A stretch of DNA of 52,961 bases from Sulfurovum sp. (GTDB lineage Bacteria > Campylobacterota > Campylobacteria > Campylobacterales > Sulfurovaceae). The first letter of the stretch is position 1. Each line of letters begins with the position of its first letter. Below, in pieces: positions 182 through 45,857 of this stretch. Where the stretch lies: NCBI GenBank assembly GCA_027029065.1, contig JALVGO010000262.1, forward strand, positions 1-52,961, read 5' to 3'. The notes beneath the pieces were generated by a model. That model was not told the origin of the DNA, ran no database searches, and saw only the letters and a list, made by a program, of their open reading frames with translations. A program made the translations under genes and the position numbers.

Positions 182-206
182 GCGCAAAACCAAACAGGCA
201 AAAGAG

Positions 207-1970
207 ATGACAAAGTGTACGATTAAGAGCATTGTCCGGCAGCTTATGCAGTACCGGAAAGAGTTGATATTTGGTAATATTATAGCCATTGCAGCTACGC
301 TTCTGATCGTTACCGTACCGCTTTTTATCCCGATACTTGTCGATGAACTGCTGCTTGGAAAAGACCACCATTTTATATCTTGGATCTCTCAGCATCTCTG
401 GCAGACAGATACCAAAGGGTATGTACTTGGCATACTGGGGCTTATTTTGCTGCTGCGTCTGCTCAGTACACTGCTGTCGATCTGGCAAACCAAGATATTT
501 GTTTTCATATCAAAAAATATTACTTATCGTCTGCGCACATCTCTGCTGGAGCACCTCAAAGGGGTTTCACTCAAAGCGTATGAGACCATGCGGGTAGGGG
601 CAGTTACCTCCAAGCTGGTAACAGACGTAGAGACGATAGACGGTTTTGTCGCTACCACCATCTCCAAACTGATCGTCTCTTCACTGATCCTGATCTTTTC
701 AGCGGTGATTTTGCTCTGGATACACTGGCAGCTGGCGCTCTTTATTTTACTGACCAATCCGGTGGTGGTACTCTTTACGGTCAAACTCTCACGCAACATC
801 GGAAAACTCAAAAAAGAGGAGAACAGGGCAGTTGAGCTGTTTCAGTCGAGTCTGAGTGAGACACTCGAACTCTTTCATCAGATAAAGGCAGCAAACAAAG
901 AGGCGTACTTTTTCAAAGAGAGTGAGAAAAAAGCCAAAGAGCTTCGTGAACATGCCCGAAACTACGGCTATAAGAGCGATGCTGCCATGAAGCTCTCCTA
1001 CCTTGTTTTTCTCTCCGGCTATGAGGTCTTCCGTGCAGTGAGCATTCTTGCCGTTGCCTACTCCGATCTCTCTGTAGGGCTGATGCTGGCGATCTTCTCC
1101 TACCTTTGGGTCATGGTTTCTCCAACACAGGATCTGATCAATTTTCAGTATGTACTCGCTACAGCCAAAGCGGCATGCGGGCGGATCAATACGATTTTTG
1201 AGATGGAGCGTGAACCTTCCGTAAAGGAGACGGTTAACCCGTTTTTACAGGCTGATGCTGTTGCGATCGAGGTGCAGGGACTAAGCTTCGCATACCAGAG
1301 CGGACAAAACTATATATTAGAAAATATCAATATGAAGATACCTGCCGGCTCCAAGGTGGCGATCGTGGGAGCCAGCGGCAGCGGTAAGACTACCCTGGCA
1401 AATATTCTGGTAGGATTTTACCCGTTTGATGAAGGGTGCATAACCTACAACGGTGTCTCACACAGTGCGCTTCCTCTCGCGTTGATACGGGAAAATATTT
1501 ATCTGATATTGCAACATCCTAAACTCTTTAATGATACAATGCGGTTTAATCTTACCCTTGGCAACACCTATAGCGATGCAGAGATTGCAGAAGCGATCCA
1601 TATTGCACAGCTTGGAGATGTCATAGCACGGTTGGATAACGAACTCGATACCATGGTTGGGAAAGAGGGGATCAAACTCAGCGGCGGTCAGCGCCAGCGT
1701 GTTGCCATCGCCCGTATGGTGTTGGCGAACCCCAAAGCGGTGATCTTTGACGAATCGACATCGGCACTCGATGTGCATACCGAAGCGAAGCTTTTTGAAG
1801 CGCTTCATACATTTTTGAAGGGTCGAACCGTTATCACCATTGCGCACAGGCTAAGTACCATCAAAAGTGCAGAGCTGATCTATGTGCTTGAAGAGGGACG
1901 CGTGGTTGACAGCGGATCACCCGAAGCGCTGCTTGCCAAGGATGAGAGTTACTTTAGCGGAATGATATAG
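207..1970 (+). CDS. ABC exporter with fused membrane and ATPase domains
   Basis: This is an inner-membrane ABC exporter half-transporter of the MsbA/multidrug type that should work as a homodimer. About 320 N-terminal residues carry the six-helix membrane domain. The C-terminal half is the ATPase: Walker A GASGSGKTT near residue 388, signature LSGGQRQR near 491, Walker B VIFDE near 513 and the switch histidine in IAHRLS. The length (587 residues) is normal. I chose the ATG at 207 because the upstream ATG at 180 overlaps the -10 box. The substrate cannot be read from sequence; uppP immediately downstream makes an envelope role possible but unproven. Confidence 0.9.
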   Translation: MTKCTIKSIVRQLMQYRKELIFGNIIAIAATLLIVTVPLFIPILVDELLLGKDHHFISWISQHLWQTDTKGYVLGILGLILLLRLLSTLLSIWQTKIFVFISKNITYRLRTSLLEHLKGVSLKAYETMRVGAVTSKLVTDVETIDGFVATTISKLIVSSLILIFSAVILLWIHWQLALFILLTNPVVVLFTVKLSRNIGKLKKEENRAVELFQSSLSETLELFHQIKAANKEAYFFKESEKKAKELREHARNYGYKSDAAMKLSYLVFLSGYEVFRAVSILAVAYSDLSVGLMLAIFSYLWVMVSPTQDLINFQYVLATAKAACGRINTIFEMEREPSVKETVNPFLQADAVAIEVQGLSFAYQSGQNYILENINMKIPAGSKVAIVGASGSGKTTLANILVGFYPFDEGCITYNGVSHSALPLALIRENIYLILQHPKLFNDTMRFNLTLGNTYSDAEIAEAIHIAQLGDVIARLDNELDTMVGKEGIKLSGGQRQRVAIARMVLANPKAVIFDESTSALDVHTEAKLFEALHTFLKGRTVITIAHRLSTIKSAELIYVLEEGRVVDSGSPEALLAKDESYFSGMI

Positions 1971-2029
1971 CAGCAAGAGCATAAAGATGCTTTTGGGTTT
2001 GGCTGTCTGGTTCCAAAGGAAATAGATAG

Positions 2030-2794
2030 ATGGATATTTTTCAGGCGGTGATCATTGGGGTCATCGAGGGGTTTACGGAGTTTTTGCCCATCTCTTCGAC
2101 TGGGCATATGATTGTCGCTTCCAAATTTTTGGGTGTAGCGGAAAATGATCTTACCAAGGCCTATGAAGTGATCATCCAGTTTGCCGCTATTTTGGCGGTA
2201 ATACTGATCTACCGTGACAAGATCAGCTTCAAAAAAATTGACTTGTGGAGCAAACTGCTTCTTGCCTTTCTGCCGCTTGCAATTGTAGGCTTCATCTTCA
2301 AAGATACCATCAAATCACTTTTTAATGTACAGACGGTGGCATGGATGTTCATTGTCGGCGGTATTGTGTTTCTTGTGGTCGAGTATTTCTACCGTGAAAA
2401 GCCGACCCATGTCAAGGATGTCGAGCAGACCACATGGCAGCAGGCACTCTGGATAGGTATTGCACAGATATTCTCTTTGGTTCCGGGTACCAGCCGTGCC
2501 GGTGCAACGATTGTCGGCGGACTGCTTGCCGGGCTGGACAGAAAAGCCTCTGCGGAGTTTAGCTTCCTGCTTGCCGTTCCGGTGATGGCGGCAGTCAGCG
2601 GCTATGATCTGCTCAAACACTACCATGAGTTTGCCTCGGCAAACTGGGGAGCATTTGCGGTAGGATTTGTAGTGGCATTTGTGGTAGCCTATGCAACGAT
2701 CAAACTCTTTTTGGCATTTTTGCAGCGCTTTACCTTTGTGCCGTTTGGTATCTACCGTATCGTCTTGGGGGTGGTACTGCTATTGATGCTGTAG
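2030..2794 (+). CDS. uppP: undecaprenyl-diphosphatase UppP (BacA family)
   Basis: This integral membrane enzyme removes a phosphate from undecaprenyl diphosphate, recycling the lipid carrier for peptidoglycan and other surface polymers. Both family signatures are present: [13 protein letters not shown] near residues 14-26 and [13 protein letters not shown] near 152-164, which contain the catalytic Glu, Ser, His and Arg region. The rest is a run of hydrophobic helices and the 254-residue length is typical. An AAGGA site lies 9 bases before the ATG. It follows the ABC exporter by about 60 bases in the same direction. Confidence 0.95.
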
Positions 2795-2892
2795 TGAGTG
2801 GATTTACCAAGTCTCCCATGGGAGCTTTGGATAAGTTCAAAACAACTTTTGAACGAAATTTTGCAGGGCAGACAACTGCCTAAAGGAAGACA

Positions 2893-4275
2893 ATGAAATT
2901 CAGTGAATTTAACTTTCACCGTGATCTTGCCAAAGGGGTGAAGATCGCAGGCTTCAGGGAACCCAGTCCCATTCAGGAGATGGCGATTCCTATCGTAGAA
3001 GAGGGCAGAGACCTTGTTGCACAGGCACATACGGGTACGGGGAAAACAGCGGCATTCGGATTGCCGATGATGGACAAGATCGCCAAAGGTGAGATTGAAC
3101 GTGCACTGGTCATTACCCCTACGCGTGAACTGGCGACACAGGTGAGTGACGAGTTGTACCACCTTGGGCGCTTTGCCGGCATCCGGACACTTACCGTGTA
3201 TGGCGGAGTAGGCTACGGACGGCAGATCGCGCTGATCCACAAAGGTGTGCAGATAGTGGTAGCGACACCGGGACGGCTGAAAGACCTTTACAAAAAAGGG
3301 AAGATCGATACCTTTAACCCTGAAATTGTGGTGCTCGATGAAGCGGATGAGATGCTCGATATGGGCTTTTTGGATGAGATCAAGGAGATATTTGACTATA
3401 TTCCCCAAAACCGTCAGACACTGCTCTTCTCTGCGACCATGCCAGAACCCATCAAAGAGCTTGCCAACCATATTCTCTACAATCCGGAGTTCATTTCGGT
3501 CATTGGTGAGGAGGAGACGACCAACAATGTCATCGAACAGCGCTACTATGTGATCAACGAATCGCAGCGTGATGAGGCGATCGTCAAACTGCTTGAGACA
3601 GAAGAGACCAACAAGTGTATCATCTTCTGCCGCATGAAGCGGGAGGTGGACAGACTGACTGAGCATCTTCAGGCACTTGGGTACAATGCTGCTGGACTGC
3701 ATGGTGACCTTGAGCAGCAGGATCGCGAAGTGATCATCAAATCCTACCGTAGAGGCGAGACCAAGATCATGGTAGCGACAGATGTTGCCGCCCGGGGACT
3801 CGATGTCAAGGATGTCACCCATGTCTTCAACTATCATATTCCATTTGATCCGCAAAGTTATGTACACCGCATCGGGCGTACGGGGCGTGCAGGTAAAAGC
3901 GGTCAGGCGATCACACTGGTGACGACTGAGGAGTTCAGGGAACTGCAGCGTATTCAAAAAGAGGTGGGTGCCCAGATGCGACTTGCCACCATTGAAGGCG
4001 GTGAAGGGCTTGATGAAGCAAGCATCGAATACCTTGTCGATCAGATCCGCTCGGTACCGGTACATACACAGGCACAGGAGGTGATTGCGGCGATATCAGA
4101 TATGGATAGGGAACTGCTGCTTGAGAAGCTGGTTTCTGCCTTTATTGAACGTGAAGATCATAATATCGGAAGTCAGATAGGGTTTGACCAGGCACAGGTT
4201 GATGCCATGCTTGAGAGCTATGAGAGTGAACAGAGAGCTACCCGAAATAACAATCGTCGAAAAAAGAGAAGATAA
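2893..4275 (+). CDS. DEAD-box ATP-dependent RNA helicase
   Basis: This is a cytoplasmic RNA helicase of the DEAD-box family, likely acting in ribosome assembly or mRNA turnover. All core motifs are visible: Walker A AHTGTGKT near residue 44, PTRELA, DEAD near 149, SATMP near 180, and in the second RecA domain ARGLD and HRIGRTGR near 325. After the core comes a roughly 90-residue extension ending in a basic Arg/Lys tail, as in DeaD/RhlE-type proteins. AAAGGAAG precedes the ATG. A second DEAD-box gene lies at 12284, so the two probably have separate RNA targets. Confidence 0.93.
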   Translation: MKFSEFNFHRDLAKGVKIAGFREPSPIQEMAIPIVEEGRDLVAQAHTGTGKTAAFGLPMMDKIAKGEIERALVITPTRELATQVSDELYHLGRFAGIRTLTVYGGVGYGRQIALIHKGVQIVVATPGRLKDLYKKGKIDTFNPEIVVLDEADEMLDMGFLDEIKEIFDYIPQNRQTLLFSATMPEPIKELANHILYNPEFISVIGEEETTNNVIEQRYYVINESQRDEAIVKLLETEETNKCIIFCRMKREVDRLTEHLQALGYNAAGLHGDLEQQDREVIIKSYRRGETKIMVATDVAARGLDVKDVTHVFNYHIPFDPQSYVHRIGRTGRAGKSGQAITLVTTEEFRELQRIQKEVGAQMRLATIEGGEGLDEASIEYLVDQIRSVPVHTQAQEVIAAISDMDRELLLEKLVSAFIEREDHNIGSQIGFDQAQVDAMLESYESEQRATRNNNRRKKRR

Positions 4276-4344
4276 TCGGTGCTTTTTAACTGCGCACAAG
4301 CAAAACTGTTTTAAAATTTGTAAACCAAATAATAAGGTGTCCAA

Positions 4345-4590
4345 ATGGAAATAAATATTGTGGGTGAAGCCCTAAAGTTCATGGTTCTTGGAATGCTGAT
4401 CGTTTTCGTGTTCCTGTTGGTCCTTGTCCAGGTGATGAAGCTTCAGGCAAAGCTGATCAACAAGTACTTCCCGGAAAAAGCACCGGAGGTACCAACTTCC
4501 ACTCCTTCTTCCAATGCAGCACAGGATGATGCGCATCATGTCGCTGCAATTGTTGCTGCAGTTGCAGAATTCCGTAAAAATAAATCGTAA
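4345..4590 (+). CDS. oadG: oxaloacetate decarboxylase gamma chain (OadG family)
   Basis: This 81-residue protein has one N-terminal membrane helix (residues about 8-30) followed by an Ala/Pro-rich linker and a His-His pair near residue 50. That is the layout of the small gamma subunit that holds the alpha and beta chains of Na+-translocating decarboxylases together. It directly precedes oadA (14-base gap) and oadB, so the three form one operon. The family is weakly conserved in sequence; the call rests on size, layout and neighbours. Confidence 0.85.
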   Translation: MEINIVGEALKFMVLGMLIVFVFLLVLVQVMKLQAKLINKYFPEKAPEVPTSTPSSNAAQDDAHHVAAIVAAVAEFRKNKS

Positions 4591-4604
4591 ACAAGGTTTG
4601 ATAG

Positions 4605-6398
4605 ATGGCTAAAAAATATATTGATGTAATGGATACGACCTTTAGAGACGGCTTCCAGTCTGTCTTTGGCGGTCGTGTACTGATGGATGATTTCTTTCCG
4701 GCAGTTGAAGCTGCCAAACAGGCGGGTATTACCCACTTCGAGTTTGGAGGCGGTGCGCGTTTTCAGTCGCTTTTCTTCTATTTGCAGGAGAATGCGTTTG
4801 AGATGATGGACGGATTCCGTGAGATCGTAGGACCTGAAGCGAACCTTCAGATACTTTCACGCGGTATCAACACGGTCATGCTTGATACCGGAAGCCGTGA
4901 GATGATCGACCTCTTTGCAAAGATGTTTGCAAAGCACGGCACAACGACGGTCAGAAACTTCGATGCACTCAATGATGTCAACAACCTCGAATACTCTGCC
5001 GAGTGTATCAAAAAACACGGCATGAACCACGAAGTGGTCGTAACGATGATGGATCTCCCTCCAGGATGCAAAGGGGCACACGATGTACCTTTCTATGAAA
5101 AGACACTGAGAAATATCCTTGACAGCGGCATCGAGTTTGATTCTGTCTGTTTCAAAGATGCTTCCGGTACGGCAAACCCGCACAAAGTCTATGAAACCAT
5201 CGCAATGGCACGTAAACTGCTTGGTGAGAGTGTCCACCTCAGACTCCATACCCATGAGACAGCCGGTGTATCTGTTGCTTCCTATCTTGCAGCGCTGGAA
5301 GCGGGTGCAAACGGTATCGATATGGCGGCAAGCCCTGTCAGCGGCGGTACCTCACAGCCTGACATCCTGACAATGCTGCATGCAACGAAGGGAACCAACT
5401 ACAACCTTGGTGATCTTAAGCTTGACAAGATTCTCAAGTATGAAGAGCGACTCAAAGAGTGCCTTGCTGACTATATGATCCCGCCTGAGGCAACACAGGT
5501 CAGTCCGCTTATTCCATTCTCACCAATGCCTGGCGGTGCGCTGACTGCCAATACGCAGATGATGAGAGACAATGGCGACCTCGACAAGTTTGATGAAGTG
5601 ATCAAAGCAATGAAAGAGGTGGTTGAACGCGGAGGTTACGGTACTTCTGTTACACCGGTCAGCCAGTTCTACTGGCAGCAGGCATATGCGAACGTCATGT
5701 TCGGACCATGGAAGCAGATCGCTCCGGGATACGGGAAAATGGTACTTGGCTACTTCGGCAAAACACCGGTCGAGCCGGATCGTGAGATCGTAGAGCTTGC
5801 AAGCCAGAAACTCAAGCTCGACCCAACAACAGAGAATCCGCTCGATATCGCTGACAGAGATGAGAACAAGTCTATTGCACACTGGAAAAAAGTACTTGAA
5901 GATGAAGGACTCGAGACAACGGAAGAGAATATCTTCATTGCAGCGGCATGTGATCAGAAGGGTATTGCGTTCCTCAAGGGTGAGTCACCGTTGATGGTAA
6001 GAAAAGGTAAAGAAAACAATTGTGGAGAAGGAAATATGGCAGGAAATTATACAGTAGTGGTTGATGGCAAGAAGTACAGTGTTCAGATAGCAGAGGGAGA
6101 TGCAGATATTCAGATTTCTGAAGCGGCACCGACAACGTCTGCACCGGCAGCAGCGGCAACACCAGCACCGGCAAACGGTGTAGGCAGTGTTGAGATCCAT
6201 TCGCAGACTCCGGGAAATGTCTGGAAAATCCTGAAAAATCCGGGAGATACTGTTGCAGAGGGTGATGTGATCATGATCCTTGAAGCGATGAAGATGGAGA
6301 TCGATATTGCGGCACCACAGGCGGGTACAATCAAGTCGATCAATGTCAATGTCAATGACGCGGTAGCAGACGGACAGCTTTTGGCAACAATGGAGTAA
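4605..6398 (+). CDS. oadA: oxaloacetate decarboxylase alpha / pyruvate carboxylase B-type biotin protein
   Basis: This biotin-dependent carboxyltransferase moves CO2 between oxaloacetate and biotin. The N-terminal TIM barrel opens with DTTFRDGFQ, and carries the metal-binding LHTHE (near residues 213-217) and the FKDASG lysine. The C-terminal end is a biotinyl domain with EAMKM, the biotinylated lysine being about residue 563; an Ala/Pro linker (about 505-530) joins the two. With oadB and oadG beside it, a Na+-pumping decarboxylase is the most direct reading. The related Campylobacter gene beside pckA is called pycB, so a pyruvate carboxylase role with a separate biotin carboxylase elsewhere cannot be excluded. 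Confidence 0.92.
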
Positions 6399-6400
6399 TC

Positions 6401-7753
6401 ATGAAGATCAAACATCTGTTACTCTCTATATTCTTTGTATTCGCATTTCTTGGCACTGCCTCTGCAGTTGCCTCAGAGCATGAAGGCGGTGTAAAGAAAT
6501 TTATGACGCAAGAGCAGTTGATCGCGCAGGAGAAGGCAACTTACCATCCTAAAAGCGTGACTGAACTTATCCAGAGTTTCTTCACAACTACCGGACTCTA
6601 TGCTATTCTGAACCCCAAAGAGGGCGTTAAGAATGGTCAGGGTGTAGAGATGAGCAAATTTGCACAGAGCTGGGGACGTGTGATCATGTTTATCATTGTC
6701 TTTATCCTCTTCTATCTGGCGATTGCAAAGGGATTCGAGCCGTTGCTGCTGCTTCCTATCGCTTTTGGAGGGCTGCTTGCGAATATTCCGGTCGCCAATA
6801 TGAGCGGTCCTCACGGGATGCTTGGAATCATTTACAATATGGGTATTGCCAATGAGTTCTTCCCGCTGTTGATCTTTATGGGTGTTGGTGCAATGACTGA
6901 CTTTGGTCCGCTGCTTGCCAATCCGAAAACTGCACTGCTTGGCGGTGCGGCACAGTTTGGGATATTTGGTTCACTAGTCGGTGCGGCGGCACTTTCCCAA
7001 TATACCGGTATGGTTGACTTTACACTGAAGCAGTGTTCAGCCATCTCTATTATCGGTGGTGCGGACGGCCCGACATCGATCTTCATTGCTTCAGCACTTG
7101 CACCGGAGATGCTTGGAGCCATTGCGGTTGCAGCATACTCCTATATGGCGCTTGTACCGGTGATTCAGCCTCCGATCATGAAGGCGCTGACAACGGAAGA
7201 AGAACGTAAAATCGTGATGAAAACAGGAAGAAAGGTACACAGACTTGAAAAACTTGTATTCCCTGTTGTTGTTATTATGATGATCGCACTGGTACTGCCT
7301 GATGCTGCACCACTGATGGGAGCATTTGCATTTGGTAACTTTGCCAAAGAGTCCGGTGTTGTGGACAGGCTCTCCAATGAGATGCAAAACTCACTGATCA
7401 ATGTGGTAACGATCTTCCTTGGTTTTGGTGTCGGTATGACGCTTCAGGCAGACAAGTTCCTTGTTGCCGAGACAATGGGAATCATGGTTATTGGACTACT
7501 GGCATTTGCTGCCGGTACGGCTGCGGGTGTACTGATGGCGAAACTTATGAACAAGTTCTCTGAAGAGCCTATCAACCCATTGATCGGTTCAGCCGGGGTT
7601 TCTGCTGTACCGATGGCGGCAAGGGTATCGAGCAAAGTCGGCTCAGATGCGAAGCCCGGTAATATTTTGCTGATGCATGCTATGGGGCCAAACGTGGCAG
7701 GGGTTATCGGTTCTGCGGTTGCAGCCGGTGTCCTGCTCTCAATATTTAAATAG
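6401..7753 (+). CDS. oadB: Na+-translocating decarboxylase beta chain (OadB family)
   Basis: This membrane subunit couples decarboxylation of carboxybiotin to Na+ export. It begins two bases after the oadA stop. The family signatures are visible: [17 protein letters not shown] near residue 160, [10 protein letters not shown] near 218 and the C-terminal [15 protein letters not shown]. It is somewhat longer at the N-terminus (450 residues) than many relatives, with a hydrophobic leader resembling a signal peptide (residues 1-25) before about 65 polar residues and the first core helix. That extension is common in Campylobacterota-like versions but I cannot assign it a role. Confidence 0.93.
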
Positions 7754-13630: not shown

Positions 13631-13632
13631 TA

Positions 13633-13662
13633 TCCAGTCAAGGACTATACATTGTTCAATAA
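13633..13662 (+). pseudogene. remnant of the big-protein tail (cassette boundary 1)
   Basis: Directly after the helicase stop, a frame reads SSQGLYIVQ and a stop. It matches the last residues of the tail remnants further right (VSQGFVIVR, ASQGLVVVR) and, more distantly, the tail of the 1005-residue protein (AREGILVWR). The TTG start of the next gene lies inside it in another frame, with AAGGA 7 bases before. It has no start of its own. Confidence 0.7.
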
Positions 13663-14446
13663 AAAATATATTATTTTTCTTTTCATGGGTTATCTGAATA
13701 TACAAGCAGAAACGTTAGGCTCTGTGTATGTATTTTCTCAAAATTCTCAAAGTTTCTATGCCGGTGTTCACTATAAATTTAATGAACAGATTGTAAATAA
13801 ACAGTATCAAAAATGGAAAAAATATGATACAGGTCGCTATGTGTACATTTTAGATGGAAATGCGACAAACTATCCATTATCAAGGCTAAAAAGAAAACTT
13901 GTTTTTGTGGCTGATCACAGTTTGGAGTGGAGTGTTGATCTGGGCGATATTGAAGAAGGAAAAGAGCATATCCAAAAGCACTCTTATCATATCAAACAAA
14001 TAAAAAGTAAAAAATTGCTTTGTGGTATGTTTTTGCAAAGTCAAAAGTTTTCTAATCAACTTTTTTCATTGGATTATATGTTCCCGACAGTACGACAGTT
14101 AAGTAGAAGGCACACATGTAAAAAAATAAAATTTGCATATGAGTTTGATCCTCTGTATGGCTATGTAACTTTTGAAGAAAAAAAGTGTATGGGGATCCCT
14201 AATTATAATACTATTGTCAATTATGTGTATGGAGTACTTCTCTTGCCCGAAAATGAAGCGTATACCGATAAGGTTATGCATAAAATATTGTCCAAATACA
14301 AAAAAGCATTTGAGTGTGCAAAGAGAATAGAGCGGAGAAAAGTGAAAACTGATACCAATCTCACCAGACTGGAACAAGCTGTAGGCAAAGAAAGGCTGGA
14401 ATGTTTGGACAGATATTTGGTATGGGATGAAAATGTGTCGAAGTAG
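13652..14446 (+). CDS. small secreted cassette protein 1 (unknown family)
   Basis: The 264-residue product starts with a likely signal peptide (residues 1-18, ending near IQA-E). Family features are WKKYDTGRYVY near residue 55, a FDPLYGYV segment near 168, YTDKVMHKILSKYKKAFECAKR near the end, and the closing LECLDRYLVWDENVSK. Residues from about 49 onward are identical to cassette protein 3. The W...Y.Y and YD..YGY pattern recalls DUF6174, but this is by eye. The start is TTG inside the preceding tail remnant. Base composition is clearly more AT-rich than the flanking genes. Function unknown. Confidence 0.75.
   Translation: MFNKKYIIFLFMGYLNIQAETLGSVYVFSQNSQSFYAGVHYKFNEQIVNKQYQKWKKYDTGRYVYILDGNATNYPLSRLKRKLVFVADHSLEWSVDLGDIEEGKEHIQKHSYHIKQIKSKKLLCGMFLQSQKFSNQLFSLDYMFPTVRQLSRRHTCKKIKFAYEFDPLYGYVTFEEKKCMGIPNYNTIVNYVYGVLLLPENEAYTDKVMHKILSKYKKAFECAKRIERRKVKTDTNLTRLEQAVGKERLECLDRYLVWDENVSK
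13794..14430 (+). repeat. 637-bp direct repeat, copy 1
   Basis: This stretch, most of cassette gene 1, is identical by line-by-line reading to 15514-16150 (offset exactly 1720 bases). The identity starts inside the coding region and stops shortly before the stop codon. It indicates a very recent duplication or gene conversion. Confidence 0.93.
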
Positions 14447-15293
14447 TAGAAGGAATGTGGATATAGCATTAAAAGCCATATTGCCATATATGCTTGCTAC
14501 AGTTTTTTCTTTTAATGTATTGTATGCTGATACACATAGCAGATATATAGAAAAGACTATAATAAGTAGTGAGGAGAAAAAAGATATTAATACTGTATAT
14601 GAAATTAAACCATCAGATCTGGATTTTGACATATCTGAAGTAGAACAAGCATATAAAAAATGGAAGGTATTAAATACAGGTACGTATACGTATATATGTA
14701 GACCACATAGTATGATGGGGCGTAATGTTGAAGCAATTTTAGCCGTAAAAGATGATAAAATCGTGCTAAGAATGCTTTTAACAAAGCCGTACTCTAAAAT
14801 ATCTGTTTTACACCACACCTTTCATTCTGTTCAAAATTTCTCACCAAAAATGCGTAGAGATGGTAGCATTTTACGTGCACATTTAAATTGTAACATAGAT
14901 GATATTTTTAATAAGGTTTTACATGGATATTACAAAAAGAGTTTTTATGATAATTACAAAATCAATATAAAATATGATACAAAATATGGTTTTATCTCAG
15001 ACTTAGTAGCCAAAAAACTTTCTACAAAAGTACGCCTTTACACAGATTCATACTCTTGGGATATTCATATGTATAAACTTTTAATGATTCCTAAAAATGT
15101 TCAATACACAGATGAAACACTGAGACTTATTTTGGATAAATACAAGCAAACATGGGAATGCGAAAAAAGGTTATTGTCTTCTAAAAAAACGAATGATGAA
15201 CAAAATCTTACATTGTTGGAAAAAGCCGTCGGCAAAGAAAAACTGGAATGTTTAGACAGATATTTGGTATGGGATGAGAATGAGTCGAAGTAG
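14427..15293 (+). CDS. small secreted cassette protein 2 (unknown family)
   Basis: The product has a likely signal peptide ending near VLYA-D (about residue 36), then about 250 residues with the family marks WKVLNTGTYTYIC, IKYDTKYGF, a YTDETLRLILDKYKQTWEC helix and the closing LECLDRYLVWDENESK. The start is unsure: ATG 14427 and 14433 overlap the end of gene 1, while GTG 14457 next to GAAGGA gives a more standard signal peptide beginning MDIALKAILP. Unlike the other boundaries, I find no tail remnant before it. The middle differs strongly from proteins 1 and 3, the last 37 residues hardly differ from proteins 4 and 6. Confidence 0.72.
   Translation: MKMCRSSRRNVDIALKAILPYMLATVFSFNVLYADTHSRYIEKTIISSEEKKDINTVYEIKPSDLDFDISEVEQAYKKWKVLNTGTYTYICRPHSMMGRNVEAILAVKDDKIVLRMLLTKPYSKISVLHHTFHSVQNFSPKMRRDGSILRAHLNCNIDDIFNKVLHGYYKKSFYDNYKINIKYDTKYGFISDLVAKKLSTKVRLYTDSYSWDIHMYKLLMIPKNVQYTDETLRLILDKYKQTWECEKRLLSSKKTNDEQNLTLLEKAVGKEKLECLDRYLVWDENESK
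15180..15293 (+). repeat. conserved 3'-end repeat of the cassette genes (copy in gene 2)
   Basis: About 114 bases coding from SKKTNDEQN to the stop are nearly identical here, at 20210-20324 (gene 4) and at 22174-22290 (gene 6). Genes 1 and 3 carry a diverged form of the same end. Together with the tail repeat upstream, it gives each cassette a homologous segment at both ends. Confidence 0.88.
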
Positions 15294-15295
15294 TT

Positions 15296-15379
15296 TTCAG
15301 TCGTTTTACTATAGACGGATACAACGATTCCGATACACAACATATTATAGTGAGCCAAGGATTTGTAATTGTTAGGTAA
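15296..15379 (+). pseudogene. remnant of the big-protein tail (cassette boundary 2)
   Basis: This frame reads ...TIDGYNDSDTQHIIVSQG... and ends IVR-stop, matching IEGYNSSDTSRIIAREG... at the C-terminus of the 1005-residue protein. It begins directly after the stop of gene 2 and has no start codon. It supplies a CCAAGGA ribosome site and the TTG start (15369) of gene 3 in another frame. Confidence 0.85.
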
Positions 15380-16166
15380 AATAAAATATGTTGTCGTATT
15401 TTTTCTGCACTGTGTATATGTCCAAGCAGATACTTTAGCAACTTTTCAAGTGATAATGCCTAAATTTCCGTCTGTTTATTATGATGTTCATTATGAATTT
15501 AATGAATCTTTTTTAAATAAACAGTATCAAAAATGGAAAAAATATGATACAGGTCGCTATGTGTACATTTTAGATGGAAATGCGACAAACTATCCATTAT
15601 CAAGGCTAAAAAGAAAACTTGTTTTTGTGGCTGATCACAGTTTGGAGTGGAGTGTTGATCTGGGCGATATTGAAGAAGGAAAAGAGCATATCCAAAAGCA
15701 CTCTTATCATATCAAACAAATAAAAAGTAAAAAATTGCTTTGTGGTATGTTTTTGCAAAGTCAAAAGTTTTCTAATCAACTTTTTTCATTGGATTATATG
15801 TTCCCGACAGTACGACAGTTAAGTAGAAGGCACACATGTAAAAAAATAAAATTTGCATATGAGTTTGATCCTCTGTATGGCTATGTAACTTTTGAAGAAA
15901 AAAAGTGTATGGGGATCCCTAATTATAATACTATTGTCAATTATGTGTATGGAGTACTTCTCTTGCCCGAAAATGAAGCGTATACCGATAAGGTTATGCA
16001 TAAAATATTGTCCAAATACAAAAAAGCATTTGAGTGTGCAAAGAGAATAGAGCGGAGAAAAGTGAAAACTGATACCAATCTCACCAGACTGGAACAAGCT
16101 GTAGGCAAAGAAAGGCTGGAATGTTTGGACAGATATTTGGTATGGGATGAGAATGCGTCGAAGTAA
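15369..16166 (+). CDS. small secreted cassette protein 3 (duplicate of protein 1)
   Basis: The N-terminus differs from protein 1 (a different signal peptide, MLGKIKYVVVFFLHCVYVQA, followed by about 30 diverged residues), but from the NKQYQKWKKYDTG segment on the two proteins are identical except near the very end (ASK against VSK). The TTG start overlaps the preceding tail remnant. The new N-terminus with an identical body suggests the body was copied into a different cassette head by homologous recombination. Function unknown. Confidence 0.75.
   Translation: MLGKIKYVVVFFLHCVYVQADTLATFQVIMPKFPSVYYDVHYEFNESFLNKQYQKWKKYDTGRYVYILDGNATNYPLSRLKRKLVFVADHSLEWSVDLGDIEEGKEHIQKHSYHIKQIKSKKLLCGMFLQSQKFSNQLFSLDYMFPTVRQLSRRHTCKKIKFAYEFDPLYGYVTFEEKKCMGIPNYNTIVNYVYGVLLLPENEAYTDKVMHKILSKYKKAFECAKRIERRKVKTDTNLTRLEQAVGKERLECLDRYLVWDENASK
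15514..16150 (+). repeat. 637-bp direct repeat, copy 2
   Basis: Identical to 13794-14430. See that entry; the flanking bases on both sides differ between the copies. Confidence 0.93.
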
Positions 16167-16357
16167 TATTTACATGATATCTAACAGTAATCAAAGTTGC
16201 TTTACTAAACTTACAGAATGGCGATGTGCTTTTCTCTGCTCGCACTCGATCCGGTCTCTGTGACCATTAATGATCCAGAGTGTGTTTCAAAAACCTTCCC
16301 AAACTATTTTGACCTACTCAAAACAGTAAGCCTCTTCTAATTTAAAAAACTTATACT

Positions 16358-16363
16358 ATAATA
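16358..16363 (+). promoter_or_regulatory. TATAAT -10 box before the 1005-residue protein gene
   Basis: A perfect TATAAT in an AT-rich stretch, with no clear -35, 32 bases before an ATG (16395) that has an AGGGGA ribosome site. The rest of the 274-base gap 16167-16440 shows no convincing gene. Confidence 0.5.
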
Positions 16364-16394
16364 TTCCTATATCTCATTAAAAAAGGGGAAAATT

Positions 16395-16427
16395 ATGTTA
16401 GAAATGATTAGAGGGGGAGGCGATTAG
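16395..16427 (+). other. short leader frame, out of frame with the signal peptide by one G
   Basis: The ATG at 16395 has a good ribosome site (AGGGGAAAATT just upstream) but reads only MLEMIRGGGD before a TAG. If the run of five G at 16413-16417 had four, the frame would read MLEMIRGEAIRTLSFLVLFL and on into the signal peptide of the big protein. Either a base-call error, a frameshift mutation or slippage during expression would explain this. Confidence 0.6.
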
Positions 16428-16440
16428 AACTTTATCTTTC

Positions 16441-19400
16441 TTGGTTCTCTTTTTGTCCATAAACAGTTTTTCGTATGCAAATGATTGTCCAAAGTGGCTT
16501 CTTTTGCCGGCACTGGATGGTTTGGTTGTGGTTGTACCTATCTATGATGCAAATATTACAGAGCCTGATCTTGATTGTGACGGTATCATAGACAGTTTGG
16601 ATCCTGACATCGATGGAGACGGTGTACCAAATGAAGAAGATGCATTTCCGAGAGACAAAACAGAGTCTGTCGATACAGATGGTGACGGCATAGGCAACAA
16701 TGCTGACCTTGATGATGACAATGACGGGTATTCGGATGCTGATGAGATCGCTTACGGTTCTGATCCGTTGGATCCCAACAGTACCCCTGCACCGGTAAGC
16801 AATGAGGGGTTCAAGGTTTCACCGTTGACAGGTACAAGCAGTCAGGTTGCTTTTACCATAGCGCTAACACACAAACCCGACAGCAACGTAACGCTTCACT
16901 ACAGCAGTGAGGATGAAAGCGTAGCCAAACCGACCACCTCTACCATGACATTCACCCCGGATACCTGGTATAGGGAACAGATTGTCAGGGTAGATATATT
17001 CAACCCCAACAGCAGTACAGAAATAGTCTTTGACCCGACAATAAGCGATGATGGAAACTACAGCAACAGAAGACTCGAACCAGTACCCATAGTCTCCCAT
17101 CAGTTGCTTTTGTTCCCGCCTAAAGATACCATTGTCTATTCTGAATTTAATATGTCTATCCCTGTTACCATGGCATATGTGGGAGACCATGAACACAATA
17201 TCACCGTTACACTCGATACGGCACCAAACGGTATGACATTGGATGCAAAAAACGGCAGAGTGTTATGGAACCCGCCTGTATCTATGGAAGGACAGGATGT
17301 CACTGTGGGCATTACTGTAAGCGATACGCAAATAGAAAAAACACTTACCTTTGACCTTCATGTCGCACAACCTACATTGCTTGCTACCTCTGTCGTAAAC
17401 GATAAACTTGTTATTACCGACAACAATGCGTCTTTAAGAGGACTGCGTATCGAAGCACTGGATGGTGCGGTATTGACAGACTACAGGCTATACACACTTT
17501 CCCCGGCAGATACCCCTGCATTTTCACAGGGTGAGTCTGTGGTGGGTGAAGCCCTTCTTATAAAAGGAAACATTGGTAAAAAGGTGAAAGTTACCCTGCC
17601 GCTGCAAGGCTTGGTAGCTACAGACGAACTGCTCTCTTTCCATACCAAAAGCTATTTCGGTGCTGGGAACTGGAGACGGGTGGATTATGATTATAACTTT
17701 ACAGGAACACTGGATCAGCCGGTGTATGAGTTGAACAGTGAGGCATTTGCAGGGGTATTGGCATTTACCAAAACACCATCTGCACAGCAAGTACATAAGT
17801 CTAACAAACAAGCAAATCGCAAGCAGACAAGAACACTGGGGAGTAGCGTTACGTGTAGCCCTGTATCATACTATGATACGCTGACCGATTTAAACAACCA
17901 GACATGTACGTTTGATAATAAGCCTAGTTTTGTGCTTAAAATTTATGACTATTTAAAGTCAAATGTTAGCCCCGAACCTATTGAAAATATTGCATTGTGG
18001 GTTTATGAAGCTCAGATATCACTTGACGTTCTTCAAATGCCATATAGCAATCATTTATCCATAGTCTTTGGAGGAACCAACAATGCTGGAGAAGTAAAAT
18101 ATAATCCTTATTACTTATTTCATAGTGGGTATTTTGGCTTGTTTCAAGCCTTGACCGTTGTACCTACCGGTAGTCTTTTTCTCAATCTTAAACAATCATC
18201 TTTCGATACAAAAGGAACTTTGTTCCATGAATATTTTCATCATAGTCAATGGCTAAAAATGCATGATTCTCTTTTTAACGGTTTGAATAGTTGGTATACG
18301 GAAGCATCTGCTGTATGGTTTGAGGATTTTGTTAAAAATAATAGTTTTGATCCATATGAGTATTTTGAATCATATAACAACAATACTATACCACATATCT
18401 TGGTAGGAGGATTGTTATTGGATTCAAATATGGGAAAATATGAAGATTATGTCAATGGCTTATTTTTTGAAATGATGGAAGGGCATTGTACAAATTTTAT
18501 AGATAATTTTCAATACTATTTTGTTGACTATAATGGCTCTGATCCGACAGGGTTTATTAATTTTACAAATGTATCTTACCAGTTAGATTGTGATTTTGGG
18601 TCTCCTACCGGTGCCGGAAATGAAAGAAGAATTGAGACGAAGCTGTTGTATTATCAGTATGCAACAACCATTAAAAAAGATACACTTCTCATAAATAATC
18701 AAGCGCAAACCACACTTAACTTTAGAGATGCGAACCCGGTAATCAAAGCCAATACTTGGAGTGAAATTGAGCAAAATGTAACTTTAAACTGGAATTGGCA
18801 AAACAGTGCTGCTCAGACAATTCATGTAGAGAGAGCAAACGGATCAATTTCGCATTGCAAAGAGAGATATATTCATTTTGAATCCCAAAATAATATTATG
18901 GTCTCTATTGCCAGTACCGATACTGATTTCCCCGATACACCTTCTACAATGTTGGGTGATATGAAACAGCTCAATTTTACTATGAACGGGACATACGATT
19001 TCACCTATTTCTATGATCCTAATACCGGGAACCCTATTTATCCTGAGATGTACATTACTTTAGTTGATATCGTCGAAGATCCAAGTGATAACAACAGTTA
19101 TCAAGCAGTCGATATGAGGTACGGCATAAGAAGAAAAAATCTACTTAGCTACATAGATAACAAAGATGTGTGTACGCCGATGCCACCGATAACACAAACA
19201 ACCATTGAAGCAAAAGGCGATATTCCTTACCAGTATAGAGATAACAATAATCCTACCCGATATATTGATACTATTAAAATCACAGATATTAATAGTGGCA
19301 ATACCTATGTAGCTACAGTCCAAAGCGACGGTAATTGGGTAAAAACCATTACGTTTACTTTCAATAGTAATAATGAAGCCCCAATTCTAATAGAAGGCTA

Positions 19401-19458
19401 TAACAGTTCTGACACAAGCCGTATCATTGCCAGAGAAGGGATATTGGTGTGGCGTTAG
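16441..19458 (+). CDS. large secreted protein with Ca-binding repeats and HExxH metallopeptidase-like domain
   Basis: From the TTG at 16441 the frame gives 1005 residues: a signal peptide end (FSYA-ND), then acidic DxDGDG thrombospondin type-3-like Ca-binding repeats (about 38-98), two beta-rich parts (about 105-215 and 220-310, the second like a putative Ig domain with PNGMTLDAKNGRVLWNPP), and a central part with HEYFHH near residue 600 followed by WYTEASAVWFED, a gluzincin-like zinc site. The C-terminal 95 residues form an Ig-like tail with SDGNWVKTITF and end EGILVWR; this tail is duplicated at 21143. From about 17880 the DNA becomes more AT-rich, so the gene looks mosaic. No normal start codon exists in frame; see the leader frame at 16395. 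Likely surface-exposed or secreted; substrate unknown. Confidence 0.8.
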   Translation: MVLFLSINSFSYANDCPKWLLLPALDGLVVVVPIYDANITEPDLDCDGIIDSLDPDIDGDGVPNEEDAFPRDKTESVDTDGDGIGNNADLDDDNDGYSDADEIAYGSDPLDPNSTPAPVSNEGFKVSPLTGTSSQVAFTIALTHKPDSNVTLHYSSEDESVAKPTTSTMTFTPDTWYREQIVRVDIFNPNSSTEIVFDPTISDDGNYSNRRLEPVPIVSHQLLLFPPKDTIVYSEFNMSIPVTMAYVGDHEHNITVTLDTAPNGMTLDAKNGRVLWNPPVSMEGQDVTVGITVSDTQIEKTLTFDLHVAQPTLLATSVVNDKLVITDNNASLRGLRIEALDGAVLTDYRLYTLSPADTPAFSQGESVVGEALLIKGNIGKKVKVTLPLQGLVATDELLSFHTKSYFGAGNWRRVDYDYNFTGTLDQPVYELNSEAFAGVLAFTKTPSAQQVHKSNKQANRKQTRTLGSSVTCSPVSYYDTLTDLNNQTCTFDNKPSFVLKIYDYLKSNVSPEPIENIALWVYEAQISLDVLQMPYSNHLSIVFGGTNNAGEVKYNPYYLFHSGYFGLFQALTVVPTGSLFLNLKQSSFDTKGTLFHEYFHHSQWLKMHDSLFNGLNSWYTEASAVWFEDFVKNNSFDPYEYFESYNNNTIPHILVGGLLLDSNMGKYEDYVNGLFFEMMEGHCTNFIDNFQYYFVDYNGSDPTGFINFTNVSYQLDCDFGSPTGAGNERRIETKLLYYQYATTIKKDTLLINNQAQTTLNFRDANPVIKANTWSEIEQNVTLNWNWQNSAAQTIHVERANGSISHCKERYIHFESQNNIMVSIASTDTDFPDTPSTMLGDMKQLNFTMNGTYDFTYFYDPNTGNPIYPEMYITLVDIVEDPSDNNSYQAVDMRYGIRRKNLLSYIDNKDVCTPMPPITQTTIEAKGDIPYQYRDNNNPTRYIDTIKITDINSGNTYVATVQSDGNWVKTITFTFNSNNEAPILIEGYNSSDTSRIIAREGILVWR

Positions 19459-20324
19459 TAGATGTAATAAAATATATTATTATTTGCAATTTTTTTGCAA
19501 TAGGTCAGATATATGCTGAAGCTAAAAGCCCTTATAGTTTTTCTTCTATGATAAAGAGATATATGCCATCACAAGAGAAAAAAATACAAACAAGTGAGTA
19601 TGAAAAAGAAAAAAAGGAAATAATTGATTATGTGCCTTTAAAAATAAATTTTGATAAAAATGAAATGAATAAGGTATATACGAGATGGAAAAAATATAAT
19701 ACGGGAACATATGTATATATTTGCAATTCAACTACTCTAAGAAATTTAGAAGTTATAATATTTTGTTATGAACATAAAGTTGTTGGTTATGTACAGTTCA
19801 CTAAAATACAAAATAGAAAGTCCCATAAAATATATACAGATTTTAACTCAGAAAAAACTATATTAACAAGAAATAACAGATTTTTTCGTAGTGCACATAA
19901 TTTAGATTATTATTTAATAGATAGTAGATTTAAAGAGTTGTCAATAAAACCTGAAAATTTAAAACATTATGATTGTCGTATACTAGATGTATCATATAGT
20001 AAAAAAAACAATTATATTGCTGCAATAGAGTTTAAAAAAATTCGTAATTGTAAAGCTAGACCAAGACCTACTGATACTGCAAATGAATGGTATATATACT
20101 CTTACGGATTACTAATGCTACCAAAAGGGACAGTATATACAGAAAAAGTCATACAAGAGATACTTGATAGATATAAAAAAGCTTGGGAATGCGAAAAGAG
20201 ATTATTGGCTTCTAAAAAAACGAATGACGAACAAAATCTTACACTGTTGGAAAAAGCCGTCGGCAAAGAAAAACTGGAATGTTTGGACAGATATCTGGTA
20301 TGGGATGAAAATGGGTCGAAGTAG
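19449..20324 (+). CDS. small secreted cassette protein 4 (unknown family)
   Basis: GTG at 19449 lies inside the last codons of the big gene (10-base overlap), with AGAAGGG 8 bases upstream, so translation is probably coupled. The product (291 residues) has a likely signal peptide ending near IYAEA, a charged Lys/Glu stretch, the family marks WKKYNTGTYVYIC and MLPKGTVYTEKVIQEILDRY, and the closing LECLDRYLVWDENGSK. It shares the DYVPLKINFDKNE segment with protein 6. As the direct partner of the big protein it may bind, inhibit or chaperone it, but this is inference from position only. Confidence 0.78.
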   Translation: MALVDVIKYIIICNFFAIGQIYAEAKSPYSFSSMIKRYMPSQEKKIQTSEYEKEKKEIIDYVPLKINFDKNEMNKVYTRWKKYNTGTYVYICNSTTLRNLEVIIFCYEHKVVGYVQFTKIQNRKSHKIYTDFNSEKTILTRNNRFFRSAHNLDYYLIDSRFKELSIKPENLKHYDCRILDVSYSKKNNYIAAIEFKKIRNCKARPRPTDTANEWYIYSYGLLMLPKGTVYTEKVIQEILDRYKKAWECEKRLLASKKTNDEQNLTLLEKAVGKEKLECLDRYLVWDENGSK

Positions 20325-20326
20325 TT

Positions 20327-20410
20327 TCAAGTCGTTTTACTATAGAAGGGTACAACAATTCCGATACACAACATATCATAGCAAGCCAAGGGTTAGTCGT
20401 TGTTAGGTAA
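20327..20410 (+). pseudogene. remnant of the big-protein tail (cassette boundary 3)
   Basis: The frame reads TIEGYNNSDTQHIIASQG and ends VVVR-stop, the same length and register as the remnant at 15296-15379. It follows the stop of gene 4 and carries the TTG start (20400) of gene 5 in another frame. No start codon of its own. Confidence 0.85.
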
Positions 20411-21137
20411 ACTAAAAGTATTATTGAAAACAGTAGCTTCCTTTATAGTGCTTGCCGTGATACTTTTCGGTATCTATCGCAGAGAGTATCTCTCTCAAGC
20501 CATACCAGTGTATATACAGTATTTGCAAATGAAGCACAAGTGGAAAACAAATAATAGTGGTACCTATACCGTTATTTATGGAGATAGATGTTTGCCGCTT
20601 AGTTATTATTTTATAGAAGACAATAGATTAAAGTATATATTTAGAAATGGGAATCTTCCTGAATCCAAATATTTGATCAAAGGTGATAAAATCTTAGACT
20701 ACATTTCACACGGAGCATTTTGTACAGGTTTTAGAAATCCTAAAAAGATTTTGATAGAAGCAAGATTTGATGAGATATTGTTGATTTTATGGTCTAAATT
20801 ATGGGACAAAACATCATTTGAAAACAAGAACTTACAGTATCCTATAGAGATAGGTTATGATTCTATCTACGGTTATCCAAAAGGGATATTGATAGGCGGT
20901 GGAGGTTATGAAGGGTGTATCAGAATAGGAGAGGAAAAACCATATTTCAAGTTTATAAATTTTGGATTGATAATGTATAAAAAACATACAGTATTTTCAG
21001 AAAAAGATATAGACAAAACTTTATCTAACTTGCAATATATTTCTTATGCGTATAAAAACAATAATGACACATTTAAAAAGAAAAACATTGTCGGCGGTAA
21101 TATTATTAAAAGTTATATAATTAAAAAGAAGGATTGA
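20400..21137 (+). CDS. anchored cassette protein 5 (diverged member)
   Basis: This 245-residue product has an uncleaved-looking N-terminal helix (residues 8-26) and so is probably membrane-anchored. It keeps the core pattern WKTNNSGTYTVIY, ARFDEILLIL and IGYDSIYGYPKG, which resembles DUF6174 more than its neighbours do, and the FGLIMYKKHTVFSEKDI segment. It lacks the LECLDRYLVWDEN end shared by the others and ends in a Lys-rich stretch. TTG start inside the tail remnant, as in genes 1 and 3. Confidence 0.72.
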   Translation: MLGKLKVLLKTVASFIVLAVILFGIYRREYLSQAIPVYIQYLQMKHKWKTNNSGTYTVIYGDRCLPLSYYFIEDNRLKYIFRNGNLPESKYLIKGDKILDYISHGAFCTGFRNPKKILIEARFDEILLILWSKLWDKTSFENKNLQYPIEIGYDSIYGYPKGILIGGGGYEGCIRIGEEKPYFKFINFGLIMYKKHTVFSEKDIDKTLSNLQYISYAYKNNNDTFKKKNIVGGNIIKSYIIKKKD

Positions 21138-21142
21138 ATGAA

Positions 21143-21457
21143 ATGCGAATAAAAAGTATTTGTGTGTGCACGTCGATGCCTCCGATAACGCAAACAACTA
21201 TTGAAGAAAAAGGCGGCGATATTCCTTGCCAGTTTAGAGACAACAATACTCCTACCCGATATATTGATACTATTAAAATCACAGATATTAACAGTGGAAA
21301 TACTTATGTGGTTACAGTCCAAAGCGACGGTAATTGGGTAAAAACCATTACGTTTACTTTCAATAGTAATAATGAAGCCCCAATTTTGATAGAAGGTTAT
21401 AACAGTTCCGATACTAGTCGTATCATTGCTAGAGAAGGGATATTGGTGTGGCGATAG
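21143..21457 (+). CDS. orphan copy of the big-protein C-terminal tail
   Basis: About 105 codons match the last 95 residues of the big protein almost residue for residue from MPPITQTTIE to the EGILVWR end, with one codon inserted (KGGDI against KGDI) and few substitutions; the DNA is also nearly identical to 19170-19458. The ATG at 21143 has AAGAAGGA upstream, so it could be translated, but no signal peptide is present. It is best seen as a displaced 3' module left with its downstream partner (gene 6), similar in layout to orphan modules of polymorphic toxin loci. Confidence 0.8.
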   Translation: MRIKSICVCTSMPPITQTTIEEKGGDIPCQFRDNNTPTRYIDTIKITDINSGNTYVVTVQSDGNWVKTITFTFNSNNEAPILIEGYNSSDTSRIIAREGILVWR

Positions 21458-22290
21458 ATATAAAATATATTTTTTTCTTAATCTTTGTTTTGTGTTTTTT
21501 ATTTAATGAAGCATTAGCTATAGATAGTAAGCTTACTATAAAAAAGAACGAGGCGGTTGATTATGTTCCCCTAAAAGTAAACTTTGATAAAAATGAAGTT
21601 ATCAAAGTATATGCAAAATGGAAAGAATACAATACCGGTACATATGTTTGCATTGCCAAACCGACCTTTACAGATGATGACTATGCAATACATTTTATTA
21701 AAAACAATACAATTGTAAAATATTTGGCATTGGAAGACCCAAAATATATATCCCGATTTAATGTGAAAGATATAGATACTTTAGCACTAAAAAAAGATGT
21801 TTTTGATACACCTGTCACACCTAATTCCAGTTATTGCATTATTGACAATATATTCAAAAAAGCATTGGAAGATTTGCCAAATTCACCAGAGTACGACTGT
21901 CTTGAATATAATCTACAATTTGACAAAAATAATCGCTATATCAGAGTATTGAAGTTGGGAAGAGTAGAAAAAGTCGATACTATTCATCATAGAAAATATT
22001 ATGTACCCTGCAAAAGAAGAGTTCAGCCATTAATATTTTATGGTAAAAAAGAAGTACTTATACATATTGATGGCTTAATGATGTTACCACGAGGGACAAA
22101 ATATACAAATCAAGTAATAGAAAAAATACTTACCAAATATAAACAGGCAACGAAATGTGAAAAGATGCTGTTAGATTCTAAAAAAACGAATGATGAACAA
22201 AATCTTACACTGTTGGAAAAAGCCGTCGGCAAAGAAAAACTGGAATGTTTAGACAGATATTTGGTATGGGATGAGAATGGGTCGAAGTAA
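21448..22290 (+). CDS. small secreted cassette protein 6 (unknown family)
   Basis: GTG at 21448 overlaps the end of the orphan tail by 10 bases, exactly as gene 4 overlaps the big gene. The 280-residue product has a signal peptide ending near ALA-ID, DYVPLKVNFDKNE and WKEYNTGTYVCI as in protein 4, a variable middle, MLPRGTKYTNQVIEKILTKY and the closing LECLDRYLVWDENGSK. Function unknown. Confidence 0.78.
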   Translation: MAIDIKYIFFLIFVLCFLFNEALAIDSKLTIKKNEAVDYVPLKVNFDKNEVIKVYAKWKEYNTGTYVCIAKPTFTDDDYAIHFIKNNTIVKYLALEDPKYISRFNVKDIDTLALKKDVFDTPVTPNSSYCIIDNIFKKALEDLPNSPEYDCLEYNLQFDKNNRYIRVLKLGRVEKVDTIHHRKYYVPCKRRVQPLIFYGKKEVLIHIDGLMMLPRGTKYTNQVIEKILTKYKQATKCEKMLLDSKKTNDEQNLTLLEKAVGKEKLECLDRYLVWDENGSK

Positions 22291-22321
22291 TGTTTAGAGT
22301 AACAATTTCTTTGATATAAAA

Positions 22322-22399
22322 TGTAGCACAGCAAGCCAAGGATTAGGCGTTGTTAGATAAATTCAAAGTAGTGCTGAAGATTGTAACTGCCTTTATCTG
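22322..22399 (+). pseudogene. last tail remnant plus 5' stub of a seventh cassette gene
   Basis: A decayed tail frame ending ASQGLGVVR-stop (to 22360) is followed, from TTG 22350, by a stub reading MLDKFKVVLKIVTAFI, close to the start of protein 5 (MLGKLKVLLKTVASFI). The match stops where the eptA coding region begins, so the right end of the island cut a cassette. Confidence 0.75.
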
Positions 22400-43800: not shown

Positions 43801-43806
43801 ATAACC

Positions 43807-45842: not shown

Positions 45843-45857
45843 AACTACAGGAGCAAT

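Follow-up and report, generated by a model that had tools for sequence, protein, structure and literature searches.

An island of putative protease toxin and immunity cassettes in Sulfurovum

A contig of Sulfurovum sp. (JALVGO010000262.1), the whole 52,961 nucleotides (nt) of which are referred to here as the window, carries an island in which one gene for a 1005-residue protein with an internal peptidase-like domain is accompanied by six small genes and by partial copies of its own 3′ end. The explanation that we consider probable is that this island encodes a polymorphic protease toxin together with immunity cassettes. The arrangement is comparable to that of Neisseria MafB and MafI, except that the variable domain here is located internally. 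Toxicity of the large protein and its inhibition by the small proteins are predicted from sequence. We favor this explanation because catalytic domains have been exchanged within a constant frame, and because the overlapping partner gene encodes a protein with an export-like N-terminus. Furthermore, open partner genes have been kept while toxin parts decayed, and a lone partner gene is found elsewhere.

Organization of the island and exchange of its parts

An initial annotation described six small genes (g1 to g6) around the large, or big, gene, with full or remnant 3′ ends of the latter before g1, g3, g4, g5, g6, and a stub. The open reading frames (ORFs) are confirmed, and each of these 3′ ends was found. 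None had been claimed before g2, where no recognizable tail is present. Besides the single big gene and remnants of its 3′ end, the island contains five small genes of family A, one of family B, and a family B stub. Database proteins are denoted below by P numbers, and related loci and genomes by L and G numbers. The features of the island are as follows.

13631..22399, no strand assigned: whole island, 8,769 bp, located exactly between the stop codon of the DEAD-box helicase gene (+) and that of eptA (−)
13633..13662, + strand: 9-codon remnant of the big-gene 3′ end plus stop, reading SSQGLYIVQ-stop; AAGGA lies 12 nt before TTG; holds the Shine–Dalgarno-like site and start of g1
13652..14446, + strand: g1, family A1, signal-like N-terminus, putative inhibitor or immunity gene
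14427..15293, + strand: g2, family A2, overlapping the 3′ part of g1; neither a tail nor a clear ribosome binding site (RBS) ahead, true start uncertain
15299..15379, + strand: 26-codon tail remnant before g3, type B, 22 of 26 residues as in P0004
15369..16166, + strand: g3, family A1; body common to g1 (684 nt, 98.5%), 5′ end different
16441..19458, + strand: big gene, 1005 codons; TSP3 and Ig-like front, internal HExxH peptidase-like domain, Ig-like tail
17851..18915, + strand: predicted M30-like zincin domain (residues 471–825), with HEYFHH at residues 596–601 (18226–18243)
17944..18483, + strand: variable segment (residues 502–681), 27–67% identical between the window protein and P0002 (15-residue bins), with well-matching flanks
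19132..19458, + strand: Ig-like tail domain (residues 898–1005)
19449..20324, + strand: g4, family A2, starting inside the last codons of the big gene
20330..20410, + strand: 26-codon tail remnant before g5, type B, 25 of 26 residues as in the P0004 tail
20400..21137, + strand: g5, family B, N-terminal membrane-anchor-like segment, 95% identical to P0127
21134..21457, + strand: orphan tail ORF, 107 amino acids (aa), type A2, in frame, last 26 residues identical to those of the big protein
21448..22290, + strand: g6, family A2
22331..22397, + strand: 9-codon tail remnant and seventh small gene stub, the latter comprising the first 16 codons, family-B-like, truncated at the island edge

Of 512 database matches to the big protein, 120 were listed, and P0001 to P0018 among these were compared, P0001 being the window protein. 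P0004 is 95–100% identical to the window protein up to about residue 426, and 0–75% identical in later bins. P0002 is 85–100% identical in the front (40-residue bins; one 15-residue bin has 60%), 27–67% identical at residues 502–681, and 93–100% identical behind this segment. The three proteins look like alleles with exchanged peptidases. Such a constant front with an exchangeable back half, in otherwise near-identical proteins, is a mark of polymorphic toxins. Toxin domains of such proteins lie at the extreme C-terminus, whereas the peptidase-like domain occupies residues 471–825 of 1005 and has a conserved Ig-like tail behind it. The initial annotation likened the island to orphan modules of polymorphic toxin or contact-inhibition loci, but noted that the repeated part is the C-terminal tail and not a variable toxin domain. 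The tail is indeed repeated, but the toxin-like domain is variable as well, although internal, and the repeated tail is its conserved right flank.

In its fold, the model of the peptidase domain matches lugdulysin, a peptidase of family M30 (PDB 7bb8; 11% identity). A Pfam scan of the big protein gave no peptidase model at E≤1, and a PDB sequence search with the A5 profile did not return lugdulysin at E≤1. The big protein scores 25 bits against the model for the MXAN_6640 family putative metalloprotease (NF045524), below the curated cut-off of 140.

Sequence exchange is also evident within the array. On the + strand of the island, 12 self-matches were detected (blastn, E≤1e-3), whereas 0 of 50 first-order Markov resamplings gave any. 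The largest repeat is that of g1 and g3 (684 nt, 98.5%). A repeat of 344 nt (77%) links the stretch from the g4 end to the g5 start with the g6 end and stub. Another of 318 nt (89%) links the big-gene tail with the orphan tail, each with the start of the next gene, and one of 252 nt (89%) links the g2 end, remnant, and g3 start with the corresponding g4/g5 stretch. Along the gene, identity between g1 and g3 is 57–62% over the first 120 nt, rises to 88% over the following 60 and to 100% in every later bin, and is 84% in the last, short bin.

A near-identical 110-base end had been attributed to most small genes. This holds for five of six, in two subgroups; g5, which belongs to the other family, lacks it. 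The last 117 nt of g2, g4, and g6 are 94–96% identical (third codon positions 0.90–0.97), and most of the remainder of these genes aligns at 33–78%. The corresponding value for g1 and g3 is 97%, and between the two subgroups 74–77%. Identity at silent positions in the shared ends points to recent copying, rather than to protein constraint alone. These results support the view that the cassettes have homologous ends and a variable middle and that exchange occurs between them. The proposal in the initial annotation that this layout permits swapping of partners is likewise supported by the self-repeats and by the exchanged back halves.

The small proteins form groups A1 (g1, g3, P0121–P0126), A2 (g2, g4, g6, and the L001 gene), and B (g5, P0127–P0172, assigned without inspection of each match). 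A family B profile also picks up A genes in G036 (E 5e-10) and G001 (E 1e-7), indicating that families A and B are related. From N-termini read by eye, family A proteins would be periplasmic and family B proteins anchored in the inner membrane. The stub is coding at 22350–22397, ending at the eptA stop, and its likeness to family B was also judged by eye. When the small proteins were scanned against Pfam, NCBIfam, and PADLOC, no match exceeded a shown cut-off. DUF6174 is matched by 5 of 39 small-family members at E≤0.01 (best E 2e-5), with P0169 reaching 17.5 bits, below the Pfam gathering cut-off of 23.8. A PDB sequence search with the small-protein profile gave no match at E≤1, and Foldseek with the small-protein model gave 0 matches at E≤0.001; a LolA/LolB-like fold is a possibility for these proteins. 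We regard P0121–P0172 and the six window proteins as an unnamed family of putative protease inhibitors.

Tail pieces and the start signals of the small genes

At 10 of 12 junctions ahead of a small gene, an AAGG core lies 12–13 nt before a TTG or GTG start, within the last tail codons. These junctions are g1, g3, g4, g5, g6, and the stub in the window, L001, both junctions of L022, and L047; the core is missing at g2 and at L023 (AAAGA). The same test was passed by 6% of 5,000 random draws of island positions; the 12 junctions are homologous to each other, so they do not count as independent observations. In the shortest remnants (g1, L047), little besides this element is left. Tails probably persist before orphan small genes because the tail holds their RBS-like site and start codon.

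The orphan tail ORF is 93% identical to the big-gene tail over 243 nt, and the remnant before the stub lies at 22331–22360. Over the last 170 residues, tails can be sorted into types that are at most 59% identical to one another. Type A2 comprises the window big protein, L001/P0003, P0002, P0005, P0013, and the 21134 orphan (by its 107 aa). Type A1 comprises P0006, P0012, and the L022 177-aa orphan (70–84% identity within the type), and type B comprises P0004, P0008–P0011, P0016, L023, and the L022 193-aa orphan (63–85%). P0007, P0015, and P0017 fit no type cleanly; the typing did not include P0018 or the truncated P0014. On the basis of the last 26 residues alone, A1 is poorly separated from B, with P0004 sharing 16–17 of 26 with the two A1 tails and 17–18 of 26 with those of type B in L023 and L022, whereas typing over 170 residues does separate them.

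Tail type agrees with the family of the following small gene in 6 of 6 cases at full-length or long orphan tails, and in one of two cases at typable short remnants (g5 agrees, g3 does not); the g1, g2, stub, and L047 junctions are outside this comparison. Types agree too for P0004 with P0127/P0141, P0006 with P0124, and P0009 with P0154, where the pairing itself is presumed.

Relatives, upstream region, and insertion site

The back half is rarely matched: at E≤1e-5, a match is present in 8 of the 175 family genomes, in several cases a distant one. Small genes of type B, or related to it, occur in 4 of the 175. A search of the genus gave matches in 9 of 78 genomes at E≤1e-15. In three of these (G001, G036, G045) the match lies in the back half, and the other six match by the front of the big protein, mostly its first 125 residues. 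In the window, L001, and L023, the small gene is immediately downstream from the big gene and its start overlaps it, as in polymorphic toxin loci. L001 and L023 each have one such pair, located elsewhere than at the DEAD-box/eptA site. L022 is a different array of two cassettes, in which two units of tail and small gene stand in tandem without a peptidase domain. L047 is a lone B gene with eight tail codons, and no big gene is present on its 6-kb contig. The orphan pieces of the window, L022, and L047 consist of 8–193 codons of tail, and thus do not encode alternative toxin domains.

The first ~125 residues of the big protein (signal-like stretch, TSP3) also front other proteins of the group that have different C-terminal parts (L024, L025, L026, and others), and may be an export or surface module common to several proteins. 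L026 encodes another HExxH protein, ended by its contig end. The L022 array is flanked by proteins with ILWRKGSSNYLWYM repeats (1594–2691 and 5701–7068, minus strand). In P0017, similar repeats are fused to the Ig part of the big protein, suggesting that the front of the big protein may be exchanged too.

Two other loci contain large genes of related kind. L038 (G091:C127) has tandem big genes with HExxH at 84–3503 and 3528–7040. Their products are 40–92% identical in the first 320 residues (40-residue bins), mostly 15–40% in the middles, and 92–100% in the last ~170 residues; conserved ends and a variable peptidase are found as in the window, but with another tail. L038 was rejected as a second such system, as no small gene lies between its two big genes. 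In L040 (G168:C17), a run of nine Cs at 728 is located just past the stop end of a minus-strand gene (740–6238) whose 1832-aa product matches the peptidase module (E 4e-39).

Three features precede the big gene in the window.

16218..16340, + strand: aroA 3′ fragment (last 40 codons and stop), with the same end as the intact aroA beside the L023 big gene; 72% DNA identity over 273 nt
16350..16366, + strand: promoter-like CTTATACTATAATATTC, identical before the big gene in the window, L001, and L023
16395..16427, + strand: probable actual start (ATG) of the big gene with its interrupted G-run; in this assembly, a stop follows the run immediately in the ATG frame

The aroA fragment is positioned relative to the big gene just as intact aroA is in L023. 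Given this aroA end beside it, the big gene probably originated, together with the promoter-like stretch, at a site linked to aroA. No aroA end is found before the L001 big gene, where the matching sequence starts only beyond the aroA portion. Behind the conserved ATG (16395) stands GGGGGAGG in the window, G8 in L001, and G9 in L023, such that a long unbroken G-run is found only in the latter two loci. In all three, the ATG frame is stopped directly after the run. Among P0001–P0012, the leader is in frame at the start of the record in P0004, P0008, P0009, and P0011, and the record starts after the leader in P0001, P0002, P0003, P0006, and P0010; P0005, P0007, and P0012 begin otherwise. A homopolymer run in the 5′ coding part, with frames that differ among relatives, is typical of phase-variable genes, and the big gene is possibly phase variable.

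DEAD-box matches occur in 170 of 175 family genomes (E≤1e-60, paralogs counted). Thirty DEAD-box loci were fetched and the first 20 read; L048–L064 (n=17) are 67–88% identical to the window protein and the others about 43–45%. The 88% protein is that of G064, which belongs to the same GTDB family as the Sulfurovum metagenome-assembled genome of L001. In 6 of the 17 loci (L049–L054) the site is empty, with eptA tail to tail and stop-to-stop gaps of 0, 0, 0, 0, 2, and 3 bp. Among the other 11, truD is present in five (L048, which is the closest, L055, L058, L061, and L064), and neither eptA nor truD lies within about 1.5 kb in six. Insertion of the island at the DEAD-box/eptA junction is simpler than clean loss in six lineages, and is preferred. 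Fixed orthologs in one order, which would have spoken against mobile cassettes, are not what these loci present, given the six empty sites, the L001 and L023 pairs, the L022 array, and the lone L047 gene.

No tRNA was found within the window, and Pfam scans of 9 and 20 of its proteins, which are part of the window ORFs, revealed no recombinase. A plasmid search with the big protein and a phage search with g5 gave no match. Elsewhere in the window, Pfam identifies type III CRISPR genes at 40489–47934 (Cas10/Csm1 palm, RAMP, Csx1-like CARF).

Known systems, alternative explanations, and implications

No described system of this form was known to the initial annotation; the MafB-CT/MafI islands of Neisseria are a described cousin. 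According to the report on them (PMC4287609), the toxin has a signal peptide, a constant front, and a variable back half, and orphan toxin 3′ pieces, some without a start codon, are each followed by an immunity gene. In layout, the window is similar in the putative signal peptide of its big protein, its constant front and variable back half, and its orphan 3′ pieces followed by a small gene. It differs in having an internal variable domain with a conserved Ig-like tail behind, orphans that are tail only, partners that look exported, and a big gene with a G-run near its start; a MafA-like partner was not seen. Like the Tox-MPTase polymorphic toxins outlined by Zhang et al. (2012; PMC3482391), the big protein is a modular secreted protein with an HExxH domain and a small gene directly downstream. 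Unlike them, its peptidase is not C-terminal and has M30 as its best fold match, and the scans assigned the small proteins to no immunity family. Polyimmunity loci, as described in the same paper (PMC3482391), resemble the window in their tandem paralogous small genes on one strand, and are never interrupted by toxin genes or cassettes. The window small genes, in contrast, are separated by the big gene and tail pieces, except for g1 and g2.

Campylobacterota contingency genes carry G-runs, as does the big gene in its first codons, with frames that differ among relatives; unlike in those genes, the run in the window is joined to a toxin-like gene. Lugdulysin is a secreted protease of Staphylococcus lugdunensis and is not known to have such partner genes. 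The window peptidase gene, at 11% identity, is accompanied by them.

The main alternative, which we consider unlikely, is a secreted feeding or matrix-remodeling protease with dedicated periplasmic inhibitors or folding helpers, in which the extra small genes would be duplicates kept by drift or dosage. Serralysin, for example, has a periplasmic inhibitor. This alternative leaves unexplained why back halves are exchanged behind a near-identical front, why middles vary while gene ends are copied, and why six different open small genes are retained. It is considerably less probable that the island is an antigenic- or phase-variation locus, in which silent cassettes donate variation to a phase-variable surface protein. 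The G-run and the tandem partial copies fit this idea, but the genes that vary are intact small ORFs, and most of them have an RBS-like site. We rejected it as the main explanation since the copied part is the conserved part and would donate little variation. Very improbable as well is the notion that the small proteins act as effectors, with the big protein serving as a carrier for them or as the protease that processes them. In its favor, the small proteins have export-like features and have diversified, and there are several of their genes to one big gene; however, family B has an N-terminal anchor-like segment, a catalytic protein followed by an overlapping small protein is the usual order of toxin and immunity genes, and L047 is a lone small gene without a big gene on its 6-kb contig. 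Equally improbable is a neutral pattern of arrays without selected function in a recombination-prone region, for although tails have decayed and the seventh gene is truncated, all six remaining small ORFs are open and five have an RBS-like site.

Several observations weigh against a toxin–immunity function. In the Foldseek ranking of the big module, lugdulysin stands sixth (E 5.5e-5) below five glycoside-hydrolase chains, albeit with TM-scores of 0.29–0.46 versus 0.11–0.14 for the latter. None of the scans linked the small proteins to a known immunity family, and no secretion gene was recognized among the window proteins scanned. The orphan pieces, the longest of which has 193 aa (L022), all lack a peptidase domain and so cannot donate an alternative toxin. 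Strict linkage of tail and small gene was rejected, as the remnant before g3 is type B and g3 itself is family A1. The three small genes upstream of the big gene would not be produced by simple displacement. Switching is doubtful in the window, where the G-run is interrupted, and frames at homopolymers can be assembly errors. Finally, toxicity and partner binding are predictions.

If the island is nevertheless a toxin and immunity locus, the big gene would encode a Sec-exported protein that is displayed on the surface or released (TSP3, Ig domains), and its internal M30-like zinc peptidase would attack envelope proteins of neighboring cells. The overlapping small gene would provide a periplasmic (A) or inner-membrane-anchored (B) inhibitor that protects the producer and its kin. 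Recombination via the conserved big-gene front, the conserved tail, and the gene ends could then replace a module of peptidase, tail, and inhibitor. The displaced module would lose its toxin part and keep the inhibitor with at least the last 8–9 tail codons, we propose because these contain the RBS and start of the inhibitor gene. The outcome would be one toxin slot with a bank of old inhibitors. The G-run may turn the toxin off while the inhibitors remain translatable.

Whether this amounts to a new toxin–immunity layout in Campylobacterota, with a phase-variable secreted M30-like protease, an internal exchangeable part, and the inhibitor RBS inside the conserved 3′ end of the toxin gene, is a tentative proposition. 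If it is true, the antidote is tethered to a scrap of toxin gene, such that the toxin gene can erode and the antidote still be expressed. Every cassette would have ready-made homology for recombination at both ends, and antidotes and toxins could be re-paired independently, as with g3 behind a type B tail. No polymorphic toxin or similar competition system is named for Sulfurovum in the part of the matching literature that was searched, and with this island, one would become known for the genus and its relatives. It would also offer a simple, testable reason for the toxin remnants ahead of orphan immunity genes: The start signal of the antidote lies inside the toxin gene.

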